NCBI GenBank assembly: GCA_902712845.1
Contig: LR743504.1
Coordinates: 2,454,001 to 2,518,000, forward strand
Direction: 5' to 3'
From: Methylobacterium bullatum
Lineage (GTDB): Bacteria > Pseudomonadota > Alphaproteobacteria > Rhizobiales > Beijerinckiaceae
DNA length: 64,000 nt
Position numbers and translations under genes: made by a program. Shown one piece after another: positions 58,311-60,809 of the stretch (position 1 is the first letter of the stretch; each line of letters opens with the position of its first letter). Under the pieces are notes generated by a model, which was given only the letters and a program-made list of their open reading frames with translations, was not told where the DNA came from and made no database searches.

Positions 58311-59576
58311 TCAGACGATCTGGACGCTCTTCGGCGTGATTTCGGAGAGCTTGGTGGCGCCGACCTGGCGCATGATCGTCTCGAACTCGCGCTGCATCAG
58401 GGTGAGCACCATCTCGACGCCGGGCTGGCCGAAGGCGGCGAGGCCCCAGACATAGGGGCGGCCGACGCAGACGGCGGTGGCGCCGAGCGCCAGTGCCTTC
58501 AGCACGTCGGTGCCGCGACGGAAGCCGCCGTCGATGAGGACCGGGACCTTGCCGTTCACGGCGGCGACCACTTCCGGCAGGGCGCCGATGGTCGATTGCA
58601 GGCTCTCCTCGGCGCGGCCGCCGTGGTTGGAGACGATGATCGCGTCGACGCCGTGGGTCAGGGCGATCTTGGCGTCTTCCTGGGTCACGATGCCCTTGAG
58701 GACGAGCTTGCCCTTCACGATGCCGCGCAGGCGCTTCACGTAGTCCCAGGTCATGCCGGTGCCGTAGAGGTTGGTGACCTTCGACACGTCGATCTCGTCG
58801 AACATCGGCTTGCGGCTGACTTCGTTCTTGAAGCCCGGCGTGTGGCAATCGGTACAGGTGCGGGTGTCGGCGCGGCGCTCGCGGAACAGCGTCTCGGTGT
58901 TGCGGCCGCCCTGGCGGTCGACGGTGAGCACGATGGCCGGGGCGCCGGCCGCCTCGGCCCGCTTCACCAGCTTCTCGGTCACGGACCAGTCGTCGGTGGG
59001 GTAGAGCATGTACCAGACGGGGGCGCCGCGCTCCTTGATGACGTCCTCGATGGAGGTGCTGCCCACCGTGGACAGGATCATCTGGTGACCCTTCACCTTG
59101 CAGGCGCGGGCGGCGGCCGCCTCGGCTTCGGGATGGAACGCACCCACGCTGCTGACGGGGGCGAGCGCGATCGGGCTCGCCCAGGTCTCACCGAAGATCT
59201 TCACGGTCGTGTCGATCTTGCGCACGTCGATCAGGCGGCGGACGCGGATATGGATCTTGTCGAAATCGTCCCGGTTGGCCTTCAGCGTCTTGTCGGCATC
59301 GACGCCGCTGGCGAGGTAGCCGTAATGCGCCGGGGGCAATTCCTTCTTCGCCACGGGCTCGAAATCGAACACGTTGAGCGCCTGCGCCGGGGAGGCGATG
59401 AGGTCGCCGTTCATCACGGGGGCGGCGCGCAGGACGTCGTAGCTCTGGGCCACCGCTTCCGTGGTACCGAGGGCGGCGATTCCCGCCAGGGCGCGTGCGG
59501 CGCTCGGCGCGAACAGGGGACTGGACGAGAAGTAGGCCAATAGTTTCCGGCGGTGGATCGATGCGTGTTCACCCAT
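58311..59576 (-). CDS. Exported FMN-dependent 2-hydroxyacid (L-lactate) dehydrogenase with CXXCH motif
   Basis: 421 residues. A Tat-like N terminus (IHRRKLLAYFSSSPLFAPSAARALAG) is followed by an FMN-dependent alpha-hydroxyacid dehydrogenase barrel: YLASGVDADKTLKANRDDFDKI, SPIALAPVSSVGAFHPEAE, IVLTVDRQGGRNTE, VLKGIVTQEDA with the Lys, IIVSNHGGRA with the active-site His, and LIDGGFRRGTDVLKAL. In the loop after the VDRQGG strand lies C241-T-D-C244-H245, a classic haem c attachment site, where LldD enzymes have no such motif. Start chosen at 59576 (GAGGGAAAG before it); an in-frame ATG at 59606 would add ten residues. A membrane cytochrome c gene precedes it. LldD-like reaction, specificity unproven. 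Confidence 0.85.
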   Translation of the reverse strand: MGEHASIHRRKLLAYFSSSPLFAPSAARALAGIAALGTTEAVAQSYDVLRAAPVMNGDLIASPAQALNVFDFEPVAKKELPPAHYGYLASGVDADKTLKANRDDFDKIHIRVRRLIDVRKIDTTVKIFGETWASPIALAPVSSVGAFHPEAEAAAARACKVKGHQMILSTVGSTSIEDVIKERGAPVWYMLYPTDDWSVTEKLVKRAEAAGAPAIVLTVDRQGGRNTETLFRERRADTRTCTDCHTPGFKNEVSRKPMFDEIDVSKVTNLYGTGMTWDYVKRLRGIVKGKLVLKGIVTQEDAKIALTHGVDAIIVSNHGGRAEESLQSTIGALPEVVAAVNGKVPVLIDGGFRRGTDVLKALALGATAVCVGRPYVWGLAAFGQPGVEMVLTLMQREFETIMRQVGATKLSEITPKSVQIV

Positions 59577-59925
59577 GGCAGACTTTCCCTCGACACCGTT
59601 CGACATACGTCTCGCTCTCGCTTGCTTCGATTTGCCGGACCTTCCTGCACCAATTCTATTGTGCGATGCAATAACTGTTATAATTCTAAATCGTAGCGTG
59701 CATGCCTTCCGCCGCCAACGCGATGAGGTCGGCCGATGCGGTATTCCAACGGGATCCGGGCTCAAAATCGCAGATCGGCGGCGATATATGTCGATTTGCG
59801 TCCTGCGCCGCGCTTTCACGATGGCGCGATCCGCCGGATCTCAGAGCTGAGCAGGCGACGTGATTCGCCCGGCACTACCGCATCGCAATATGAAAAGGGC
59901 CGGTCGACGGGTCGTTCGGAACAGT
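59577..59925. promoter_or_regulatory. Upstream region of the hydroxyacid dehydrogenase gene
   Basis: About 350 bases between two minus-strand genes, with an AT-rich part at 59655-59695 (ATTCTATTGTGCGATGCAAT then AACTGTTATAATTC) that contains a TATAAT-like hexamer on the plus strand and is a likely promoter zone. No gene seen. Confidence 0.4.
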
Positions 59926-59988: not shown

Positions 59989-60564
59989 TTACTGCGCCGG
60001 CTTGTCCTCGGCGGCGGCCTTCTCGACGGCGGGAAGCGGCGCCGGGGTGTCGGCGAGCGAGCGCAGATAGGCGATCACGTCGGCGCGCTCCTGCGGGGCC
60101 TGGATGCCGGCAAAGGCCATCTTGGTGCCCGGCACGTAGGTCTTCGGGTTGGCGAGGAAGTGATCGAGCTCGTCGTAGGTCCAGGTGCCGCCCTTCTCCT
60201 TCAGCGCGGCGGAATACTCGAACCCGCTCTCATGGGCGCGCTGGCGGTCGACCACGCCCCAGAGGTGCGGACCCACCTTGTTGGGGCCGCCCTTCTCGAA
60301 ACTGTGGCAGGCGGCGCACTTCTTGGCGGCGCCGGTACCCTTCTCGACGCTGGCGCTGGCGAGGCGGACCGGAAGCGGCTCGACCTTGGCCGCAGCGGCG
60401 GCGGCTCCGCCGGCCGCCTCGGGCTGAGGCTCGGGCAGGGCGTAGCCGGCACTTCCCGCCGGCTTGGCGCTGTAGATCAATTCGGCGACGAAACCGGAGC
60501 CCATGGCGAGAAGGAGAGTGCCGAGTACGGCGCCCGCGACCTTGTTCAGCTCGAAAGAGTCCAT
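59989..60564 (-). CDS. Membrane-anchored class I cytochrome c
   Basis: 191 residues from ATG 60564. An N-terminal uncleaved anchor (VAGAVLGTLLLAMGSGFVAELI), an Ala/Pro linker, then one cytochrome c domain with the haem motif CAACH (KKCAACHSFEKGGPNKVGPHLWG, visible pieces KKCAACHSF and VGPHLWGVV), the Met ligand in PGTKMAFAG, and DVIAYLRSL. It matches the CycM type that carries electrons to terminal oxidase. The tail is Ala/Lys/Glu-rich. A terminator separates it from the dehydrogenase gene downstream. Confidence 0.93.
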   Translation of the reverse strand: MDSFELNKVAGAVLGTLLLAMGSGFVAELIYSAKPAGSAGYALPEPQPEAAGGAAAAAAKVEPLPVRLASASVEKGTGAAKKCAACHSFEKGGPNKVGPHLWGVVDRQRAHESGFEYSAALKEKGGTWTYDELDHFLANPKTYVPGTKMAFAGIQAPQERADVIAYLRSLADTPAPLPAVEKAAAEDKPAQ

Positions 60565-60809
60565 TCTCGACAACTCCGGGGGCGTCCGCCGGTTGCGGCG
60601 GCAGGCGTGGCCCGGTGAGCGGATGCCCCGGACTCTGGAAATGTTCGAGGGTGAATAGCGGTTAAGGGCCGACCTTGACAATGGCGGAGCGGGCGGCCGT
60701 GTAGTCGCATAGCGCCGGATGTCATTCTCCCGCACCCGCGACCGTGCGCCGATGACAACGCGCACCGCCCCTGCTACTCCCCCGGCTCGCTGCGGAGATA
60801 CGCCGGTCG

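Follow-up and report, generated by a model that had tools for sequence, protein, structure and literature searches.

Within the window, the 64,000-nucleotide stretch of Methylobacterium bullatum DNA analysed here, the minus strand at positions 58311-59576 encodes an FMN-dependent 2-hydroxyacid dehydrogenase (421 amino acids plus stop), which combines a Tat-type N-terminus with a CXXCH motif in loop 4 of its barrel, and raises the question of whether an enzyme of this family holds haem c in its active-site lid and feeds electrons to cytochrome c in the periplasm. The start codon of the gene is uncertain, since an in-frame ATG at 59606, ten codons 5' of the annotated start, offers an alternative that is also found in several close relatives, and the open frame extends to 59819; the Tat-like part of the protein is identical whichever of the two ATGs starts translation.

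Family membership and relation to known enzymes

Scanning against Pfam placed FMN_dh (PF01070) on residues 76-418 (E 1.7e-110, 369.8 bits against a cut-off of 24.9), and this was the sole full-length FMN_dh match in the genome, the other four being partial (20.9-48.2 bits). The best NCBIfam matches were lactate dehydrogenase models, and the scores fell below the cut-offs for LldD (NF008398, 242.2 against 376 bits; NF033901, 218.4 against 550 bits), L-lactate oxidase (TIGR02708, 182.1 against 645.5 bits), and the pre-mycofactocin synthase MftD (TIGR03966, 209.9 against 470.85 bits). Four Pfam families were matched at E 0.001 or better, and a Cyt-b5 domain was absent from them; the same matches included no cytochrome family, such as the cytochrome c domain PF00034, and the motif itself lies in a barrel loop. 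All five catalytic residues that mark the family (Y87, Y192, K294, H318, R321) are present, and the protein is a member of FMN_dh outside the flavocytochrome b2, LldD, lactate oxidase, and MftD families. A 100% identical copy was found in M. bullatum LMG 24788, and PLSDB lists the M. bullatum copy (NZ_LR743510.1:2332844-2334106) on a 2.8 Mb record that it treats as a non-mobilizable plasmid, which is unusual; the record is perhaps that of a chromosome.

Yeast flavocytochrome b2 (EC 1.1.2.3; 1FCB) belongs to the same FMN barrel family (1fcb match at 2.2e-45) and, if our reading is right, would share with this protein a single chain in which FMN and haem feed cytochrome c. Its haem, however, is a non-covalent haem b in a separate N-terminal cytochrome b5-type domain, whereas the N-terminus studied here is signal-peptide-like, and in this bacterial protein of the Tat type haem would be bound covalently, at a c-type motif within loop 4. 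LldD and (S)-mandelate dehydrogenase have the same barrel, both are membrane-bound on the cytoplasmic side, and LldD reduces quinone. The closest fold is that of spinach glycolate oxidase (1GOX) and the plant and animal hydroxyacid oxidases, which are peroxisomal and whose active-site residues align with those of our protein; in the Foldseek search, glycolate oxidases led (5zbm, then 1gox) at 38-41% identity, with a TM score by target of 0.90 for 1gox.

According to a survey of EC 1.1.3.15 (PMC8491902), the hydroxyacid oxidases pass electrons to O2, and mandelate dehydrogenase is quinone-reducing, with a special, longer loop 4. The survey also mentions haem domains of the b5 type and enzymes with a long loop 4, and CXXCH is absent from its main text. 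In a review of cytochrome-bearing flavoenzymes (PMC6472588), flavocytochrome b2 is the example for L-lactate and contains haem b; the c-type entries among the table rows consulted are FAD enzymes whose cytochrome is a domain or a subunit. These flavocytochromes c, represented by p-cresol methylhydroxylase, flavocytochrome c sulfide dehydrogenase, and flavocytochrome c3, likewise pair a flavin with c-type haem in one enzyme or complex, but they use FAD and other folds, and the cytochrome part listed as housing their haem, a domain or subunit, has 74-174 residues and is not a barrel loop (PMC6472588). Among open-licence PMC titles and abstract openings, none was found to describe an FMN hydroxyacid enzyme that contains haem c.

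The loop 4 motif and the residues conserved with it

The motif C241-T-D-C244-H245 (CTDCH; 58842-58856, minus strand), the proposed haem c attachment site, lies shortly C-terminal to the strand IVLTVDRQGG, within loop 4, which joins beta4 to alpha4. The initial annotation had placed a CXXCH in the loop after the VDRQGG strand, where it gave canonical LldD as having none; the translation confirms the motif, and three PDB alignments (two lactate oxidase constructs, one glycolate oxidase) show no CXXCH at that place. Shuffling of the protein sequence produced a CXXCH in 0.056% of 200,000 shuffles. Across homologues the motif, the hallmark of c-type cytochromes, is retained: it was present at loop 4 in 107 of 135 distinct sequences (83/101 and 24/34), which come from Methylobacterium, Methylopila, betaproteobacterial MAGs, Gemmatimonadota, and Acidobacteriota. 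The remaining 28 are without the loop 4 cysteines, and the 18 of these that fall among the 101 aligned sequences include one truncated gene without that region (L031). This gene, from Methylobacterium sp. WL119, and L246 (genome G1228) are both truncated, with only residues 271-413 present at 82% identity. Sixty-one CXXCH representatives were retained at <88% identity, in which C, C, and H are invariant by group definition; the XX pair took 37 forms among them, as would be the case if the two Cys and the His alone were important.

A tree was built from 74 rows (61 CXXCH representatives, 13 others), with the loop columns left out of the alignment. All 61 fell on one side of a single branch and the 13 without the motif on the other (SH-aLRT 99), so that the insert does mark one group, a point that the initial annotation had put forward for checking. 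With shuffled labels, a mean of 12.2 changes was needed, and 0 of 500 shuffles gave a count as low as that observed. No CXXCH-less homologue among the 13 lay inside the group, no loss of the motif within it was seen on the 74-row tree, and, given the single branch, one origin suffices. The tree is a quick build whose outgroups have long end branches, for which reason the position of the root is unsure. In the class of the CXXCH-less homologue L030, no further sister lineage without the motif was found among 229 genomes, only L030's own.

Protein matches were obtained in 20 of 111 genomes of the genus at E<=1e-70 (one a fragment, and not every match read for the motif), in 10 of 249 genomes of the order at 1e-80, and in 5 of 398 genomes of the query's phylum at 1e-75. 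In the phylum of the Acidobacteriota record L032, 26 of 297 genomes matched at 1e-70, 20 of them with the CXXCH type and six with a CXXCH-less homologue only. In the phylum of the Gemmatimonas record L029, 64 of 249 genomes matched at 1e-70; all 64 matches were read, giving 54 with CXXCH in loop 4 and 10 without, the latter scoring <=249 bits. Three records with CXXCH (L023, L024, L026) were betaproteobacterial MAGs. The acidobacterial paralogue L032 (G621:C577:55725-56960), whose genome holds four copies of the CXXCH-type protein, keeps CXXCH and H84 but lacks the Tyr192 region and carries His in place of Arg321; it is perhaps a haem protein that no longer acts as a dehydrogenase. A further subgroup (L076-L079, L081, L082) has an additional CXXCG (CADCG, CEICG, CPDCG, and similar) between signal and barrel, possibly a small metal site.

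Conservation of the catalytic residues was high in the CXXCH group (Y87 59/61, Y192 60/61, K294 61/61, H318 61/61, R321 60/61). His318 of the SNHGGR motif (58623-58625, minus strand), presumably the catalytic base of the FMN_dh family, and Lys294 of LVLKG (58695-58697, minus strand), which we take to be its FMN-contacting lysine, were also present in 13/13 of the others. His84 (59325-59327, minus strand) lies three residues N-terminal to the catalytic Tyr87 (59316-59318, minus strand), which aligns with a tyrosine of spinach glycolate oxidase that we number Tyr24. His84 was found in 61/61 CXXCH representatives against 2/13 others, and, among all sequences having that position, in 107/107 CXXCH homologues against 4/27 without CXXCH; L030 and L080, the nearest CXXCH-less relatives on the tree, have V and A there despite a Tat-like start. 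The four exceptions (L083, L084, L085, L245) have His84 without the motif, and the residue may accordingly serve another role. On balance we favour His84 as the distal haem ligand, with some reserve. Group-specific residues further include Trp197 (58986-58988, minus strand; 57/61 against 0/13), just after the second active-site tyrosine (192) and a possible electron-transfer bridge, as well as R114 (60/61 against 2/13), F382 (61/61 against 2/13), and N226 (60/61 against 4/13). Met258 was considered as an invariant sixth ligand and was ruled out, being Met in only 46/61 representatives; in those 46 it could act as a ligand.

In yeast flavocytochrome b2, the equivalent tyrosine, Tyr143, contacts a haem propionate, and by analogy a haem held by loop 4 and His84 would sit near the docking place of the b2 haem. 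In lactate oxidase, Tyr40, here taken to be the counterpart of Tyr87, binds the substrate carboxylate, and loop 4 shuts over the active site (PMC4908395). Loop 4 is reported as a flexible active-site lid in family relatives (PMC10153336, PMC4908395) and as varying with function across the family (PMC8491902). An AlphaFold2 model, built from 15 sequences, had a mean pLDDT of 75.6, with much of the barrel >90 and loop segments 222-228, 235-258, and 268-273 at <50; at this confidence the modelled loop neither supports nor excludes a haem pocket. In the model, His84 and Tyr87 lie on one predicted helix (82-89), three residues apart, so their side chains should face a similar way.

Export and candidate electron partners

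A Tat-like signal had been attributed to the protein by the initial annotation, and this held up. Read by eye, the N-terminus (MGEHASIHRRKLLAYFSSSP...AVA/QS) is Tat-like with an AXA site; it contains HRRKLLAYFSSSP and the AVA/QS site, with a twin-arginine core RRKLL at residues 9-13 (59538-59552, minus strand) and a hydrophobic stretch. Using a simple pattern and no trained predictor (RRx[FLIMV], then a low-charge stretch), a Tat-like start was identified in 59 of 61 CXXCH representatives, the remaining two beginning at contig ends, and a start resembling RRxFLxFLAASPLLA is common to many group members. Such a start also occurs outside the CXXCH group, in 3 of 13 CXXCH-less rows (L030, L080, L083), and L030 and L080 are probably exported flavoenzymes with another electron route. 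A lipobox-like cysteine after the Tat motif was counted in nine representatives, including L104, L106, and L111 (12 pattern matches minus L091, L098, and L075, where the match lies inside the barrel), which suggests that part of the CXXCH group may be Tat lipoproteins.

The gene next upstream, which the initial annotation had noted as a membrane cytochrome c, does encode a cytochrome c (59992-60618, minus strand; PF00034, E 2.4e-10), and its location stands; a role as dedicated partner does not, and its candidacy was rejected, because it was carried by 41/41 genus genomes sampled, as a genus core gene, and in only 4 of 30 loci read did the flavoenzyme adjoin it. In those 30 loci, spanning about 1.5 kb per side, kdsB adjoined the cytochrome c gene in 29, the thirtieth ending at a contig end, and the genus as a whole has these genes in the order cytochrome c, kdsB, pheA. 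Conversely, a homologue of the upstream cytochrome was found near the flavoenzyme in 5 of 75 loci (L005, L006, L007, L017, L021, out of L005-L032 and L127-L173) and not in the other 70. The adjacency looks incidental.

No conserved operon was found around the flavoenzyme in 59 loci using crude gene calling; the widest neighbour cluster covered 7/59 loci at scattered distances, and some neighbours recurred within subgroups only. Ten nearby proteins scanned against Pfam (a PEBP-family protein, a small cytochrome-like protein, YceI, two FKBP isomerases, a hydrolase, a SnoaL-like protein, and three unmatched) had no common theme, and the neighbours of the CXXCH group give no shared partner or substrate gene. 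As no neighbour is common to the group, the electron acceptor is probably a general periplasmic cytochrome c. One Gemmatimonadota subgroup (L155, L156, L158) has small same-strand genes after the flavoenzyme, and in L156 (5066-5970) both small genes 3' of it encode FKBP-type prolyl isomerases. Two Cytochrom_C_asm genes, of what is presumably the CcmC/CcmF family, are present in the genome of the flavoenzyme.

Proposed mechanism, alternative readings and implications

From these sequence comparisons, the CXXCH very probably carries haem c, and the protein is likely to be a periplasmic single-chain flavocytochrome in which electrons would pass from FMN through haem c to cytochrome c. The (beta/alpha)8 barrel would fold and bind FMN in the cytoplasm before export by Tat, and FMN binding before export would explain the use of that route. 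Loop 4, as a mobile lid, would remain accessible after export; flexibility such as that reported for the loop in relatives (PMC10153336) might keep the CXXCH within reach of the Ccm machinery, which would then link a single haem c to Cys241 and Cys244 and leave His245 to serve as the proximal ligand. With His84, on the Tyr87 helix, as the likely distal ligand, the haem would be clamped close to FMN, where the active site opens. An L-2-hydroxy acid, for which lactate, glycolate, or another hydroxy acid are candidates, would be oxidised by the chemistry of His318, Arg321, Tyr87, and Tyr192, all of which are present, and electrons would leave FMN singly via the haem, with a soluble cytochrome c of the periplasm as their acceptor in place of O2 or quinone. 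Tat normally carries folded proteins, whereas chains that receive haem c are normally still unfolded, so this order of events would be unusual. Only tentatively do we propose the scheme as a whole, namely that the lid became a c-type haem site reduced to a few dozen residues, with bis-His ligation completed by the histidine of the Tyr helix and with haem loaded after Tat export, and that this site had a single origin and now occurs in Acidobacteriota, Gemmatimonadota, and Pseudomonadota.

That the haem acts as an electron wire to cytochrome c appears likely in its own right, and has to be set against a haem c that is five-coordinate and catalytic, with a peroxidase or O2-handling role in removing oxidase-derived H2O2. 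The oxidases of the FMN hydroxyacid family do make H2O2, there is no invariant Met near the motif (only Met258, variable as above), and His84 could be a distal catalytic histidine rather than a ligand; plain bis-His ligation would account equally well for a conserved histidine at this place, however, and no peroxide enzyme was among the ten neighbouring proteins scanned, and we regard a catalytic haem as unlikely. It is similarly improbable that the motif forms a disulfide or a metal site (zinc, iron-sulfur) that stiffens the lid while electrons go to quinone or O2. Loop 4 is already function-dependent in the family (PMC8491902), but His is kept with both Cys in 61/61 representatives while XX is free, which disfavours a disulfide, since a disulfide would need no His, and no third loop cysteine is conserved among the 61 that would speak for a metal.

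An ordinary cytoplasmic lactate dehydrogenase of the LldD type, having both the CXXCH and the RR start by chance, would agree with lactate dehydrogenase models being the top NCBIfam matches; this reading is already disfavoured, and hardly credible, as the scores lie far under the curated cut-offs (242.2 against 376 and 218.4 against 550 bits), and the CXXCH and the RR start both recur in homologues of three phyla.

Retention of this signature in relatives from three phyla points to what may be an undescribed type of flavin-haem enzyme, and the flavocytochrome reading, if true, would have several consequences. The lactate dehydrogenase or oxidase annotations of the CXXCH group would be misleading, and it would have to be asked how the Ccm machinery handles a folded Tat substrate. 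A compact flavin-haem enzyme might also find use in direct-electron-transfer hydroxyacid electrodes. FMN hydroxyacid enzymes serve as models for the adaptation of one barrel to cytochrome c, quinone, or O2. To place a haem c in the lid would be a new solution, which would show that no cytochrome domain is needed for a cytochrome site to evolve in the loop of an enzyme, and it would couple electron transfer mechanically to the movement of the lid.
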